Shown in pieces: positions 9,305 through 45,623 of a stretch of DNA of 64,000 bases (its first letter is position 1; each line of letters starts with the position of its first letter). Source of the stretch: Chloroflexota bacterium (GTDB lineage Bacteria > Chloroflexota > UBA11872); the NCBI GenBank assembly GCA_022825895.1, contig JAJDVX010000019.1, positions 1 to 64,000 on the forward strand, written 5' to 3'. The notes beneath the pieces are model-generated. The model made no database searches. It was not told where the DNA came from and saw nothing but the letters and a program-made list of their open reading frames with translations. Position numbers and translations under genes: made by a program.

Positions 9305-9527
9305 ATGTCGCAACCCGAGCCCCCAATGCCCTTGCCGCACTTGCCGCCCCCTGTCGCTGTCCCCGCGCCCGGCGACCAGGTGGTCCGGCTCCCGTGCCCG
9401 GCGCCGATCGGTCCGCGGCTCTGCCTGGGCCTTGCAAACCTCGTTCGACGCCACGCCCTGGCCCATCCCCAACCCCGCCGAACTGCGGCCCAGAGCGCCC
9501 CGCCGCAACCGAAGAGTTTTTTGGAAA
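9305..9527 (+). pseudogene. Proline-rich leader ORF, 5' part, cut by IS1595 element
   Basis: Encodes a proline-rich stretch starting MSQPEPPMP and ending SAPPQPKSFLE, at which point the IS1595-like element is inserted. Joining 9305-9527 to 12029-12141 restores 336 nt (112 codons including stop) in one frame, with the core PKSFLEKTLTRA. An intact relative is at 45357-45623. It is reported as disrupted; the small size means coding status is an inference, supported by the coupled start of the gene downstream. Confidence 0.6.
9520..9527. repeat. Left target-site duplication (TTTGGAAA)
   Basis: Eight bases directly left of the IS1595-like element. The right flank has TTCGGAAA at 12021-12028 (7 of 8 match). 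An 8-bp duplication is normal for the IS1595 family. Confidence 0.75.
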
Positions 9528-9553
9528 GGGGCTTATATACCCCGTTAGCCAAG
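9528..9553. repeat. Left terminal inverted repeat of IS1595-like element
   Basis: Starts GGGGCTTATATACCCC and ends TTAGCCAAG. It pairs with the right end at 11995-12020, with mismatches at positions 4, 15, 16 and 18. Confidence 0.85.
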
Positions 9554-9581
9554 TGAAAATGGGTACCTTGCATGCTTCCAG

Positions 9582-9686
9582 CGTTCACGGTCGGACCTCA
9601 GTGCCTTGCCCTGCACCGCCACGCCTAGGCATGACTGGCCTAGCCGTGCCGGGCCACGAGTTTTCAGCTCGGTCCGACCGTGAACG
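9582..9686. repeat. Long hairpin A (16-bp perfect stem)
   Basis: CGTTCACGGTCGGACC at 9582-9597 is the exact reverse complement of 9671-9686. The 73-nt interior holds a second, imperfect hairpin (CACGCCTAGGC / GCCTAGCCGTG, one mismatch). Confidence 0.8.
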
Positions 9687-9708
9687 GTGGGAGCATGACA
9701 CAGGTCTT

Positions 9709-9834
9709 CATAGGCCCAGAGACCACGGGCGAACCCGACCTACCACACGCCAGGCCACGCCTAGCACAGCCATGTCCTAGCCGTGCCACGCCGTGATTCA
9801 CAAGCTAGGTTTGCCCGTGGTCTCTGGGCCTATG
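9709..9834. repeat. Long hairpin B (22-bp perfect stem)
   Basis: The 22 nt at 9709-9730 (starting CATAGGCCCAGAGACC) are exactly complementary to 9813-9834, and pairing extends four more pairs inward with one G-T. The interior again holds CACGCCTAG...CTAGCCGTG. Confidence 0.85.
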
Positions 9835-9958
9835 TCCCGCAGGTGGACGATGTGGGTGGACCCTGCCTAGCCGCGCCGGGCCAAGCCACGCCTAGCCCTT
9901 CGGGGCCTTGCTGGGCCGTGCCTCGCCCTGGTTTCAGGTTGATCGTCCACCTGCGGGA
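9835..9958. repeat. Long hairpin C (17-bp perfect stem)
   Basis: TCCCGCAGGTGGACGAT at 9835-9851 is exactly complementary to 9942-9958. It directly abuts hairpin B. The interior has GCCTAGCCGCG, CCACGCCTAGC and GGGCCGTGCC modules like those of A and B. Confidence 0.82.
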
Positions 9959-9981
9959 CCCCAGTTTGACAGACGCTCTCC

Positions 9982-10010
9982 TTGACACCCGCCCGCCCAT
10001 TGGCTAAAAT
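9982..10010 (+). promoter_or_regulatory. Sigma70-type promoter of the transposase
   Basis: TTGACA at 9982-9987, a 17-nt spacer, and TAAAAT at 10005-10010, 27 nt before the transposase ATG. It lies just downstream of hairpin C. Confidence 0.75.
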
Positions 10011-10037
10011 ACTTCCATAAATAGAGAGGGGCGGCTG

Positions 10038-11000
10038 ATGAGCAGGAACGCGAGCAGCAAGGGACCGGGGCGGGCAGACCGCAAGGGAATGTCCCTGCCC
10101 GAGATCATCCGGCTGTTCCCGGACGATGAGGCCGCCGAGGCGTGGTTCGTGAAGACCCGATGGCCCGAAGGCGTCACCTGCCCGCATTGTCAGTCTGACA
10201 ACATCCTGCACGTCAAGAGCCGCAAGCCGCAGCCCTACCGGTGCCGGGCCTGCCGCAAGCATTTCTCTGTCCGGACCGGCACGCTGATGCACGGCTCCAA
10301 CCTCGGGCTGCAGACTTGGGCGCTGGCCTTTTTCCTGGTGGCGACCGGCATCAAGGGCACGGCCAGCATGAAGCTGCACCGGGACCTCGGCATAACTCAG
10401 AAGACCGCCTGGCACTTGGCGCACCGTATCCGGGAGACTTGGCGGGACAATGCCCCGCAGTTCGCCGGTCCGGTGGAGGCGGACGAGACGTACTTCGGCG
10501 GCAAGGAAGGGAACAAGCACGCGAGCAAGCGCCGGAACGCTGGCCGCGGCAAGGTCGGCAAGACTCCGGTCGCCGGTGTGAAGGACCGGGCGACGGGGAG
10601 GGTAAGCGCGGCGGTGGTGCCGAACACCAAGACCGAGACCCTCCAGCCGTTCGTTGAGGAACGCTTGGAACCGGGGGCGATGGTTTACACCGACGAATGG
10701 TGGGCCTATCGGAACCTCCCGAACCGGCAGGCCGTGCGGCATGGTGTCGGCCAATGGGTCGACGGCCAAGTACACACGAACAATCTCGAGAGCTTTTGGT
10801 CCCTGATGAAGCGCGGTTTTCATGGCTCTTATCACAAGATGAGTCCGAAGCACTTGGACCGGTACGTTCGGGAGTTCGAGGGGCGGCACAACCAGCGGGA
10901 CCTCGACACGATTGACCAGGTGCGCGGGATGGTGCGGGGGACGGAGGGCAAGCGGCTCAGCTACAGGGACCTGACGGCCGGCGGGCCTGCTTATCCCTAG
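10038..11000 (+). CDS. IS1595-family (ISXO2-like) transposase
   Basis: The 320-residue transposase has an N-terminal zinc ribbon (CPHC near residue 54 and CRAC near 74) for DNA binding. The DDE-type core follows: VEADETYFGGK (first acidic residue), YTDEWWAY (second) and HTNNLESFWSLMKRG (third region, with the Asn/Glu typical of this family). AGAGGGGCGG provides a ribosome site before the ATG. The frame is intact. The gene lies between the hairpin array and the passenger genes inside the bounded element. Confidence 0.92.
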   Translation: MSRNASSKGPGRADRKGMSLPEIIRLFPDDEAAEAWFVKTRWPEGVTCPHCQSDNILHVKSRKPQPYRCRACRKHFSVRTGTLMHGSNLGLQTWALAFFLVATGIKGTASMKLHRDLGITQKTAWHLAHRIRETWRDNAPQFAGPVEADETYFGGKEGNKHASKRRNAGRGKVGKTPVAGVKDRATGRVSAAVVPNTKTETLQPFVEERLEPGAMVYTDEWWAYRNLPNRQAVRHGVGQWVDGQVHTNNLESFWSLMKRGFHGSYHKMSPKHLDRYVREFEGRHNQRDLDTIDQVRGMVRGTEGKRLSYRDLTAGGPAYP

Positions 11001-11036
11001 CCGGGGGACACGGCGGGCGGTGTTACTCTACCGGCC

Positions 11037-11108
11037 GCTACACAGTCGGGACTTCCTCGCGGCCTCGGACGGGTCGCGCTGGGTCACTGTGTAGCAACAG
11101 GGAAGTCC
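11037..11108. repeat. Two interleaved inverted repeats after the transposase
   Basis: GCTACACAGT (11037-11046) pairs with ACTGTGTAGC (11086-11095). GGACTTCC (11049-11056) pairs with GGAAGTCC (11101-11108). The arms alternate, so the two stems would form a pseudoknot or be mutually exclusive. Confidence 0.6.
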
Positions 11109-11166
11109 GCCCAGCGGTTCTGTTCGGGGCCGCGTTTGCTACCGGGCCTCCCAAGGGAACCGATCC

Positions 11167-11493
11167 GTGCCGTTCAATGTTGGCCCTTTTGAGATCATCG
11201 TGGCCGCCGTCGTGATTGGCGGCTTCCTTTTGCTCATCACGTCGAAGCAACGGGCGGGACGGCCGCCACAGAGCGAGGAGGCCCGCCTTGCCTCCCGCTC
11301 CCTTGACGAGCTGGTGGCCGAGGGCTGGCGGATCGAATCCGAGTCGACCGAGTACGTGTTTTTGGTGAAGGGGCGGCCGGTCAATCATCTGCTGCACTTT
11401 TTCGTCGGCATTTTCACGCTGGGCGTTTGGTGGATCGTCTGGATACTGGTGGCGGCCAATGGAGGCGAGCGGCGGCATACGGTCAAGCGGTAG
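11167..11493 (+). CDS. Small two-span membrane protein, IS1595 passenger
   Basis: A 108-residue protein with an N-terminal membrane helix (residues ~7-25), a soluble segment (LDELVAEGWRIESESTEYVFLVKG) and a second helix (~78-97, FVGIFTLGVWWIVWILVAANGG), ending in basic residues. The layout of a short soluble domain then HLLHFFVGIFTLGVWW is seen in small bacterial and phage membrane proteins of unknown role. GTG start at 11167. It lies inside the IS1595-like element downstream of the transposase, so it is a passenger gene. Function unknown. Confidence 0.65.
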   Translation: MPFNVGPFEIIVAAVVIGGFLLLITSKQRAGRPPQSEEARLASRSLDELVAEGWRIESESTEYVFLVKGRPVNHLLHFFVGIFTLGVWWIVWILVAANGGERRHTVKR

Positions 11494-11529
11494 GGCAAGG
11501 GTCGGCTGTTCAGACTGGACAGCCGCAGA

Positions 11530-11535
11530 TATAAT
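11530..11535 (+). promoter_or_regulatory. TATAAT candidate -10 box
   Basis: A perfect TATAAT about 80 nt before the gene at 11617. The -35 region is weak. A small hairpin (GGCTGT at 11504-11509 with ACAGCC at 11518-11523) lies just upstream and could end the previous transcript or act as an operator. Confidence 0.4.
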
Positions 11536-11616
11536 GTGCTAGGCGCAGTTGCCCGCCATCGGCGGCCCGACGCCTAATCGGCGGGGAACAGGGACCCTCG
11601 CTACGGAGGAACCGGC

Positions 11617-11814
11617 ATGACGGCAGACGGCGAACGGCTCGCACGCCTAGAGGGTGCCTATGAACACTTGGCAACCAAGGCCGATATTGCCGAACTTCGT
11701 GGGGAACTAAAGGTCGAATTGTCCAACATTGAGAACCGACTGACGCGCTGGGTCATTGGGGCGGCCGGGGTTGCGGCCGGCATCATCATCGCCGTCGATC
11801 GGTTGTGGACCTAA
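11617..11814 (+). CDS. ATKAD-family small coiled-coil/membrane protein, passenger
   Basis: A 65-residue protein. Residues 1-42 form a coiled coil with LARLEGAYEHLATKAD; one membrane helix (~44-60) is followed by the tail AVDRLWT. It matches the product at 48117-48314 in length and at about 35 of 65 positions, so the same small gene is found both inside and outside the element. GGAGG lies 7-8 nt before the ATG. The stop overlaps the next start by one base (TAATG). Function unknown. Confidence 0.7.
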   Translation: MTADGERLARLEGAYEHLATKADIAELRGELKVELSNIENRLTRWVIGAAGVAAGIIIAVDRLWT

Positions 11815-11984
11815 TGCCCCGCAAGCGCAAGCGCGGCCGGCCTCCGGTCAAGACCATGCCGCCGCCGATACCCGACACCCCGGAGAACATCGCCCTTGCG
11901 TGCATGATGGGGCCGCCGAAGACCGAGTGGGACTACCTGAAGGCGGCCCCGGAGAGCCAGAAAGCCGAACCTGTTTCCGATTGA
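11814..11984 (+). CDS. 56-residue basic/proline-rich protein, passenger
   Basis: Encodes a 56-residue protein starting MPRKRKRGRPPVKTMPPP, an AT-hook-like KRGRPP basic patch, then IPDTPENIALACMMGPPK and EWDYLKAAPE. The DTPENIA...GPPKxEWDYLK pattern looks like a conserved small-protein motif. The start codon shares a base with the upstream stop (TAATG), so it is translated with the coiled-coil gene. It may bind DNA through the GRP motif (inference). Confidence 0.6.
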   Translation: MPRKRKRGRPPVKTMPPPIPDTPENIALACMMGPPKTEWDYLKAAPESQKAEPVSD

Positions 11985-11994
11985 CTCGCGGCGG

Positions 11995-12020
11995 CTTGGC
12001 TAGCACGGTATATAAGTCCC
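11995..12020. repeat. Right terminal inverted repeat of IS1595-like element
   Basis: CTTGGCTAGCACGGTATATA then AGTCCC. The reverse complement begins GGGACTTATATACC and matches the left end at 22 of 26 positions. Confidence 0.85.
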
Positions 12021-12028
12021 TTCGGAAA
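12021..12028. repeat. Right target-site duplication (TTCGGAAA)
   Basis: Matches TTTGGAAA at 9520-9527 except at the third base. Confidence 0.75.
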
Positions 12029-12141
12029 AAACTCTTACGCGCGCAACCCGCCCCCCGCCCGCCACCCCGGGTCCCCGCCACCTGCCACCCCAATGCGGCA
12101 AGCTGATCCCCCCTCCCGCACCACCCGGCGAACCTCAGTGA
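12029..12141 (+). pseudogene. Proline-rich leader ORF, 3' part
   Basis: Continues the frame cut by the IS1595-like element, giving KTLTRATRPPP and a proline-rich tail. It ends in TGA at 12139-12141, which overlaps the GTG start of the glycosyltransferase gene (GTGA). The intact homologue at 45 kb overlaps its downstream gene in the same manner. Confidence 0.55.
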
Positions 12142-13643
12142 CCCAGCCGGACCCGCCGCCGCCCCAGCCGCCCATCATCCTCTCGCGCCGCGACCTGGCC
12201 CGAGCCGCCGTCATCACCATGTTTGCCGGCCTCGTTTACCTCCTGTCATCCGGCGCCCACGCCTACAGCGTCGACGAAATCACCAACTACGCCTCGGCCC
12301 GCGCCCTCGTCGAAACCGGGAGCCCTGACCTCGGCGGAGACCAACCGATTCCCCGCGAGCAACTGCTGACCCTCGCGCATCCCACAGCCGACCGATTGAC
12401 TGGCCGCTACGGCCTGCTTTCATGGGCGGCCATCACGCCCGCCTACCTCGTCGCCAAGTGGATCGGTTCAGAGCCACCCTCGCCATCCCCCGCGTTTCCG
12501 CAGCCGAGTGTCGTCCGGCCGTTGGCCGCCTTGCTCTACGGTCCTGTAGTCGCGGCCACCCTTGTGGGCGCGACCTACCTGCTCGGCCGAAACCTCAGCC
12601 TGCGCCCCCGTTACGCCTTGGCCGCCGCGCTGCTACTGGCCTTTGCCAGTCCGCTCTGGGTCTATGCAAAAGGTCTGGCAAATATCCCGCTGGCCGCGCT
12701 CTTGGCGATACTCACCCTGCTCGCAATTTCGACCAATATTCCAGGCGCCCGCCGTTGGGCCATTGCCGGTGCGTTGGCCGGATTGACCGTCGTCGTCCGT
12801 CCGGAGTTGATTGCGTTCGCCTTGGTTGTCGGCACCGTGAGCCTGCTCACCTGGCGGGCCGGCTGGCGAACCGGCCTGACGTGCTCAGGCACATTTGCTG
12901 CTTCGTCGGCGGCAATCGTTCTTCCAGGTGTGGGCCTCTGGAATATCTACCGGACAGGAGAATTCTTCGACGTCGGTTACCGAACGGCCTCAATCCTATG
13001 GCAGACCGACCGCGCGTATATCGGCGTATTCGGCGTGCTGGCCAGTCCGAGTTTCGGCTTGATGGTCTTCATGCCCGTGGCGGCGATCGGCCTTTGGGGG
13101 CTCCTCCGAATGGCGGGAAGCCGACCAATCTGGTTGGCCATGCTCGCGCTTGTCGTAGTAGCGACCATAGGCTACGGATCGTTTCGGGACTGGCACGGCG
13201 GGGTGTCGTGGGGTCCTCGGTATCTAACCGCCGTCACGCCATTCCTTGCGCTTGGTGTGGGCGCGCTTCTCCAGGCGCGCATGACTACCTGGCTGATGCG
13301 GCTGACCACCGCCGGACTGGCCGCATGGTCGCTGGGTCTGTCCGTGCTCGGCGTGCTCTTTGACTACCAGCGAGGCTGGCAAAACTTGTGGGAGCACGGC
13401 GCGCGCCCGGAACAGGTGCTCTGGAATCCTCACTTCTCGCTCATCGGTGCTCACCTGCGCCTGGCCCGACATTGGCAGGACGGCCTGATCGGACCTGACC
13501 TCTATCTATTCCAACGCTTTGGCCCGTGGGCCTTCGTGCTCCTAGCCTTCGGCATGCTCTTTGTGATCGGTGTCGCCCTCGTCGTGCGGGCGCACAGTTC
13601 TGGGTGCGATCACGACTCGCTGCCTACTGCCAGACGTTGGTAG
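12138..13643 (+). CDS. Multi-pass membrane glycosyltransferase-like protein (GT-C fold)
   Basis: The ~501-residue protein has roughly ten hydrophobic spans. Traits of GT-C polyprenyl-phosphate-sugar transferases are a first extracytoplasmic loop with an acidic residue (AYSVDEITNYASA) and the late motif DWHGGVSWGPRYLTAVTPFLALG. It likely transfers a sugar to a cell-envelope acceptor on the outer face; donor and acceptor are unknown. The GTG at 12138 is preferred because it overlaps the leader-ORF stop as GTGA; an ATG at 12093 in frame is possible. The IS1595-like element now separates it from its original leader and promoter. Confidence 0.7.
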   Translation: MTQPDPPPPQPPIILSRRDLARAAVITMFAGLVYLLSSGAHAYSVDEITNYASARALVETGSPDLGGDQPIPREQLLTLAHPTADRLTGRYGLLSWAAITPAYLVAKWIGSEPPSPSPAFPQPSVVRPLAALLYGPVVAATLVGATYLLGRNLSLRPRYALAAALLLAFASPLWVYAKGLANIPLAALLAILTLLAISTNIPGARRWAIAGALAGLTVVVRPELIAFALVVGTVSLLTWRAGWRTGLTCSGTFAASSAAIVLPGVGLWNIYRTGEFFDVGYRTASILWQTDRAYIGVFGVLASPSFGLMVFMPVAAIGLWGLLRMAGSRPIWLAMLALVVVATIGYGSFRDWHGGVSWGPRYLTAVTPFLALGVGALLQARMTTWLMRLTTAGLAAWSLGLSVLGVLFDYQRGWQNLWEHGARPEQVLWNPHFSLIGAHLRLARHWQDGLIGPDLYLFQRFGPWAFVLLAFGMLFVIGVALVVRAHSSGCDHDSLPTARRW

Positions 13644-45360: not shown

Positions 45361-45623
45361 CGGGGGGCTCCGGCGGTGAAATGGATGGGCTTTGCGCGCG
45401 TAAGAGTTTTTTCCAAAAAACTCTTCGGTCGCCGGGGGGCGCTTTGCGGCGGCGAGTGGCGCTGGCTGAGGGGGGACCGGAGGGCAGCGGCGAGGGGGCA
45501 GGGCCGGGACCGAGGGACAGGCTGGGACAGGCCAAATCCCGGCGATGCGGGGGACGGCTGATGGGCGGCAGGGGGCGATAGGGCGGCGGGGGAGGGCATC
45601 GGGGCCGGGGGTTGCGTGGTCAT
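45357..45623 (-). CDS. Proline-rich leader ORF with PKSFLEKTLTRA core
   Basis: An 88-residue ORF starting MTTQPPAPMPSPAA, with about a fifth Pro, then SAPRRPKSFLEKTLTRAKP and a short tail. It matches the interrupted ORF at 9305/12141 at its start and especially in the core. The core DNA is a near-perfect palindrome. Its TGA overlaps the synthetase TTG start (TTGA). The coupling and the recurrence suggest a translated leader that controls the downstream gene; a stable protein function is less likely. Confidence 0.5.
   Translation of the reverse strand: MTTQPPAPMPSPAALSPPAAHQPSPASPGFGLSQPVPRSRPCPLAAALRSPLSQRHSPPQSAPRRPKSFLEKTLTRAKPIHFTAGAPR
45402..45425. repeat. AT-rich perfect hairpin inside leader ORF
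   Basis: AAGAGTTTTTT (45402-45412), CC, then AAAAAACTCTT (45415-45425): an 11-bp perfect inverted repeat in very GC-rich surroundings. With flanks (TTGCGCGCGT on one side, CGGTCGC on the other), it equals the site split by the IS1595-like element. Confidence 0.75.

Follow-up and report, generated by a model that had tools for sequence, protein, structure and literature searches.

Insertion sequences (IS) of the IS1595 family, which comprises the ISPna2, ISH4, IS1016, IS1595, ISSod11, ISNwi and ISNha5 groups, share a DDE_Tnp_IS1595 transposase domain, an N-terminal zinc ribbon (in all groups but IS1016), ends beginning with GG and AT-rich 8-bp target-site duplications (TSDs) (PMC8101967, PMC12561309), and published members usually carry one transposase gene (PMC8101967). 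According to the excerpted description of ISApl4, a member of the IS1016 group, this element shares inverted ends, in its case starting with GGGG, and AT-rich 8-bp TSDs, but spans 712 bp with a transposase only, and the excerpt notes no palindrome preference (PMC12561309). A dispersed extragenic palindrome is hit repeatedly and precisely by the IS that target repetitive extragenic palindromic (REP) sequences (IS1397, ISKpn1, ISPsy8, ISRm22, ISPpu9 and IS621), which have been described from the IS3, IS110, IS4, IS256 and IS5 families, IS1595 not being among those (PMC1525189). Here we analyse a stretch of 64,000 nucleotides (hereafter the window) from contig JAJDVX010000019.1 of a Chloroflexota bacterium (assembly GCA_022825895.1), in which an IS1595-type element several kb in length differs from described members of the family in harbouring passengers, in its array of hairpins and in a conserved companion gene at its right end. 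We consider it highly probable that this is a complete IS1595 transposon inserted by DDE transposition at the dyad of a palindrome that constitutes an IS1595 hotspot, and that the right-end gene is a companion of its transposase clade. Elements of this kind are known; new are its companion gene and the hotspot.

The boundaries of the element could be read from a natural empty site. At the orthologous, uninterrupted locus of a sister species from the same genus (G001:C33, locus L133; throughout, Gnnn:Cn denotes genome and contig, Lnnn a locus, G000 the window's own genome and G001 this sister species), the blocks matching the left and right window flanks share exactly 8 bp, and these flanks, joined without the element and one repeat, are 96.9% identical to it over 5817 bp. 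Both ends and the 8-bp TSD are thus fixed without recourse to the inverted repeats. They agree with a preliminary description of this DNA, made from the letters alone, which had placed the element at 9528-12020 with inverted ends of about 26 bp (22 of 26 positions pair by inspection, and a 42-nt inverted pair there is 83% complementary), had noted 8-bp flanking repeats (TTTGGAAA and TTCGGAAA, with one mismatch between the copies), and had suggested a search for strains with the empty site. Both terminal inverted repeats (TIRs) begin with GG (GGGGCTTATATAC and GGGACTTATATAC), as is typical of the family, and about a hundred related elements share this type of end, matching ends in relatives being a further point on which the preliminary description was made to depend. 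The family assignment it proposed is supported by the transposase, in which we found the DDE_Tnp_IS1595 domain (Pfam PF12762, E=9.5e-42; NCBIfam equivalog domain NF033547, E=4.9e-56) and an N-terminal Zn_ribbon_IS1595 domain (PF12760, E=8e-11); by domain, zinc ribbon, ends and 8-bp duplication, the element is classified from its sequence as an IS1595 family member (PMC8101967, PMC12561309). Among solved structures, the search for relatives of the transposase brought up only unrelated zinc fingers.

What the element interrupts, at the exact centre, is a 24-bp palindrome, AAGAGTTTTTT-NN-AAAAAACTCTT. Removal of the element and one repeat restores AAGAGTTTTTTGGAAAAAACTCTT, and a motif search confirmed the earlier statement that the restored palindrome is also found intact elsewhere in the window, where its half-motif occurs four times against 0.01 per window in shuffles. 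The own genome contains 13 palindromes without mismatch (15 within three mismatches), as compared to 0 control matches. When the survey was extended to 12 further members of the genus and to the sister genus g2, copies were recovered in 10 of the 12 and in low number (6-28 per carrying genome), and none was found in g2. REP repeats associated with RAYT transposases, by comparison, are mobilised by these enzymes and reach high copy numbers. The palindrome had no Rfam match in the window and was not found in viral contigs. Its surroundings are conserved and asymmetric, roughly GCGCCCCG-N4-GCCTC before and A-NN-GCGCG after the palindrome, and most sampled copies share one orientation and have a gene start 35-207 bp downstream. 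These downstream genes, named by inspection of their translations, are unrelated to each other and include those for a glycogen debranching enzyme, a diaminopimelate epimerase, carbonic-anhydrase-like, NfeD-like and FabF-like proteins and a sulfatase, among others. Several copies occupy orthologous places across species, as do symmetric variants such as AAGAGTTTCTTGGAAGAAACTCTT (TTTCTT...AAGAAA). Besides the two window sites (45402-45425, and 9512-9527 with 12021-12036), the palindrome was noted at loci L019-L033. It is a previously undescribed, genus-specific cis element, probably with a regulatory or leader function, e.g. as an operator.

The preliminary description had instead located the insertion inside a short leader open reading frame (ORF) of 112 codons. 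This frame is indeed literally open once the flanks are joined, but in the sister species it is broken by a 1-nt deletion, substitutions fall evenly over codon positions 1, 2 and 3 (6/7/6), and the site hit is a conserved non-coding motif, the palindrome of a 5' leader. We consequently reject the frame as a gene, its interruption being a highly improbable account of the locus.

Within the genus, insertion at the exact palindrome centre has occurred repeatedly. Nine or more insertions of the IS1595 family, belonging to three subgroups distinguished by their ends (GGGRNTTATATAC, CGGAATTAGTCAC and CGCGATTATCCC; groups A to C in Table 1), lie at this position with the TSD TTTNNAAA: eight have both ends on one contig, the two halves of another are on separate contigs (G005:C5/C78), and single ends represent up to three more. 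One of these single ends, G000:C2, has a left flank resembling that of G000:C12, so it may not be independent. In two of the three subgroups the transposase is only 34-37% identical to that of the window, and for several of the insertions orthologous uninterrupted palindromes exist. The search for other copies in the own genome, also proposed earlier, led to G000:C12, an element with group A ends in the same dyad, flanked by a perfect TTTGGAAA duplication, with a transposase 61% identical to that of the window and different cargo. The insertion in G001:C7 sits two bases off the palindrome centre. The 11.6-kb element in a G011 palindrome (L345:3502-15137) combines IS1595-type ends and an IS1595 transposase with another transposase-like gene, located close to the right end.

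The gene at the right end was examined across 113 related elements and 638 kb of flanking DNA. Its best start is the ATG at 11814, which shares bases with the stop codon of passenger 2 (TAATG), and its own stop lies 36 bp from the right end. An iterated profile detected relatives in 58 of the 113 elements, and in 57 of a strict subset of 75 (transposase >=50% identical, or drawn from the relatives set), with 0 matches in the flanking DNA. Elements bearing the gene span many phyla; when it is on the transposase strand, the distance between its stop and the right end has a median of 42 bp, and the gene usually lies within 80 bp of that end. Its copies diverge mainly at third codon positions and the motif D(T/A)PEN(I/L)A is conserved, while the AT-hook-like KRKRGRPP is present in some proteins and replaced in others by a basic N-terminus only. 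No matching model was found in Pfam, NCBIfam or PHROG. This gene, which the preliminary description had listed among three unusual passengers, represents a conserved small-protein family and a companion of this transposase clade; it is new, with the reservation that similar genes may have been described earlier. Most likely, its product would be a small protein that binds DNA and acts as an accessory to transposition or as its regulator. An ordinary passenger, spread by chance and with no functional part in the transposon, would fit the lack of the gene in about one quarter of elements with similar transposases and in nearly all of those with <50% identity, as well as the plainly variable cargo formed by the other ORFs; the frequency, phyletic breadth, absence from flanks, fixed position and protein-level conservation described above make this improbable. 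At two loci (L138 and L143) the gene adjoins an IS1595-type end with no transposase within the 3 kb examined, possibly in non-autonomous or truncated elements.

As for the choice of target, the TSDs of 96 elements average 6.7 A or T in 8 positions vs 3.4 in the background, with A/T favoured at positions 1-3 and 6-8. We propose that DDE transposition placed the element at the dyad centre, duplicating the central 8 bp, in the 5' leader of the gene now starting near 12093-12180. The transposases would prefer AT-rich, two-fold-symmetric 8-mers (WWWNNWWW), and the palindrome would supply TTTNNAAA between A-tracts, in non-coding DNA tolerant of insertion; the hotspot likely results from this preference, since the palindrome offers an 8-mer that is rare in these GC-rich genomes (114 occurrences of TTTNNAAA in 3.54 Mb). 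Several observations weigh against this explanation. In the genus, four IS1595 elements that are fully resolved lie outside the palindrome (G005:C68, G006:C56, G006:C44 and G001:C3), which makes it a hotspot rather than an obligate target; about 100 close relatives outside the genus, with the same type of end, use AT-rich 8-bp sites without a palindrome; the AT-hook core is missing from the companion proteins of G000:C12 and G009:C292, both inserted in palindromes; and the enrichment may derive in part from the survival of insertions in non-coding DNA. Survival could even account for the whole pattern, if insertion took place at any AT-rich 8-mer and the palindrome were simply a rare harmless one. 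The generality of the AT-rich preference, the location of palindromes in non-coding leaders and the four elements placed elsewhere all agree with this possibility, to which we accord a tentative but appreciable weight; yet all complete palindrome insertions of groups A-C lie at the exact dyad, despite 17 overlapping 8-mers with >=6/8 AT within the 24 bp. Rough nulls gave P ~6e-27 if every site with AT>=6/8 is equally likely and 5e-5 if every TTTNNAAA is, and ~2e-7 for exact centring in 8/8 cases against seven AT-equal offsets. They argue against AT content alone, but ignore selection against genic insertions, so that survivorship may contribute a share.

The selection of one position by three subgroups whose ends differ and of which two have distant transposases, together with the orthologous conservation of the palindrome and its symmetric variants, might also point to a host protein bound to the palindrome, or to cruciform extrusion, recruiting IS1595 transposases or exposing the site to them. 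We regard this as rather unlikely: no candidate binding protein was identified, and the TSD fits the general preference of the transposases, so no extra factor is needed. Likewise improbable is a two-component transposition system in which the right-end protein would be a dedicated DNA-binding subunit choosing or bending AT-rich targets, with the leader palindromes of the genus as landing pads. The two hookless palindrome insertions indicate that the AT-hook is not required for insertion there, and with hook-bearing elements elsewhere not in palindromes, the candidacy of the AT-hook protein as a palindrome-targeting factor is weakened. The palindrome is a previously unreported hotspot of several IS1595 subgroups, not their exclusive target. 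The resemblance to REP-targeting IS extends to insertion in a dispersed extragenic palindrome; in contrast to those, insertion here is into an AT-tract palindrome in front of genes, and it involves some copies of the elements, not all or nearly all. One of the elements placed elsewhere (L095, in G006:C44), a distant IS1595 element with 37% identity, lies inside another, GC-rich and terminator-like palindrome (GGGGGGCCGAACCCC...GGGGTTCGGCCCCCC).

Table 1. Features of the window and distribution of palindrome-centre insertions by type of end.
Feature	Position or location	Strand	Basis or remarks
IS1595-family transposon, 2493 bp, complete	9528..12020	+	Domain matches, inverted ends, empty-site alignment
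Left palindrome part, closed by left TSD copy TTTGGAAA (9520-9527)	9512..9527	+	
Left TIR GGGGCTTATATACCCCGTTAGCCAAG	9528..9553	+	Same TIR type in ~100 relatives
Hairpin 1, 27-bp stem, 73-nt loop	9571..9697	.	Diverged homologue, same place, G008:C37 (L065:3708-3847)
Hairpin 2, 27-bp stem, 72-nt loop	9709..9834	.	Paralogue of hairpin 1
Hairpin 3, 18-bp perfect stem, 90-nt loop	9834..9959	.	Diverged paralogue
Promoter-like TTGACA-17-TAAAAT before transposase gene	9982..10010	+	Read from sequence, predicted only
IS1595 transposase, 320 aa, zinc ribbon and DDE domain	10038..11000	+	Pfam, NCBIfam
Passenger 1, 108 aa, hydrophobic C-terminal segment	11167..11493	+	Three further IS1595 elements have homologues
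Passenger 2, 65 aa, likely coiled coil and membrane segment	11617..11814	+	Two further IS1595 transposases have homologues nearby
Companion gene, 56 aa, AT-hook-like KRKRGRPP then PIPDTPENIA	11814..11984	+	
Right TIR	11995..12020	-	
Right TSD copy TTCGGAAA (12021-12028) and right palindrome part	12021..12036	+	
Intact palindrome copy	45402..45425	.	Upstream of minus-strand acyl-CoA-synthetase-like gene
Group A ends (GGGRNTTATATAC)	Window, G000:C12, G010:C20, G009:C292, G011:C79		G011:C79 is an 11.6-kb element
Group B ends (CGGAATTAGTCAC)	G001:C45, G005:C5/C78		Flanks of the latter fall on either side of a single locus
Group C ends (CGCGATTATCCC)	G001:C62, G005:C46; single ends G005:C73, G009:C107		G005:C73 at the locus of G001:C62

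The single-transposase-gene habit, typical of IS1595 but not strictly defining, is not observed here, the element having three extra ORFs and a hairpin array. Cargo is also carried by related elements and not by that of the window alone, and similar promoter-like boxes are present inside them. The passenger set, whose constancy between copies the preliminary description had proposed to check, is not constant: passenger 1, which matches PHROGs of unknown function, and passenger 2 are found in few other elements. These two recur as mobile cargo, so that the word unusual does not hold for them.

The hairpin array is unique among the 113 elements, with one diverged copy in a decayed G008 element. 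Its three paralogous hairpins of 126-127 bp follow the left end, ahead of the transposase promoter, and fold much better than shuffles (z ~ -10). Their stems have diverged in sequence but kept their pairing by compensatory changes: on three sequences in an approximate alignment, 11 pairs are altered on both sides vs 4.8 in shuffles. Of the three stem mismatches in hairpins 1 and 2, two form G-U wobbles when read on the plus strand, which hints weakly at selection at the RNA level. A covariance model searched against 61 genomes recovered the array and the G008 homologue (50 bits) and no other convincing match; plasmids, Rfam and viral contigs (the latter by exact loop pattern) gave none. One possible role would be to insulate the transposase against transcription by the host. 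Long hairpins occur in 6 of the 113 elements, and we reject them as a general type of cargo.

Genes for tRNAs or tRNA-like sequences were observed in other related elements (L064, L074, L085, L089, L080 and L100); for some of them ARAGORN called unusual anticodon loops, of 4 or 2 bases. In L089 (G037:C303), a 26-bp perfect inverted repeat surrounds a tRNA-Leu-like gene inside an IS1595 element (element positions 1424-1631). We do not claim enrichment of tRNA genes as cargo, there being 8 in 302 kb of element DNA vs 16 in the 638 kb of flanks.

Named matches to the relatives are metagenome-assembled genomes of Chloroflexota. The isolate names of the best 80 transposase matches are ones that we take to be those of sponge metagenome projects, and thus presumably denote mostly sponge-associated bacteria from many phyla, which suggests exchange of these elements within sponge microbiomes. 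With boundaries proven by a natural empty site, IS1595 appears to be added to the IS families using dispersed extragenic palindromes as hotspots, and these insertions expose, in one Chloroflexota genus, an undescribed cis element repeated before unrelated genes. The occurrence of a conserved accessory gene without a model in current libraries indicates that the IS1595-like transposons of sponge-associated bacteria may be more than single-gene elements.

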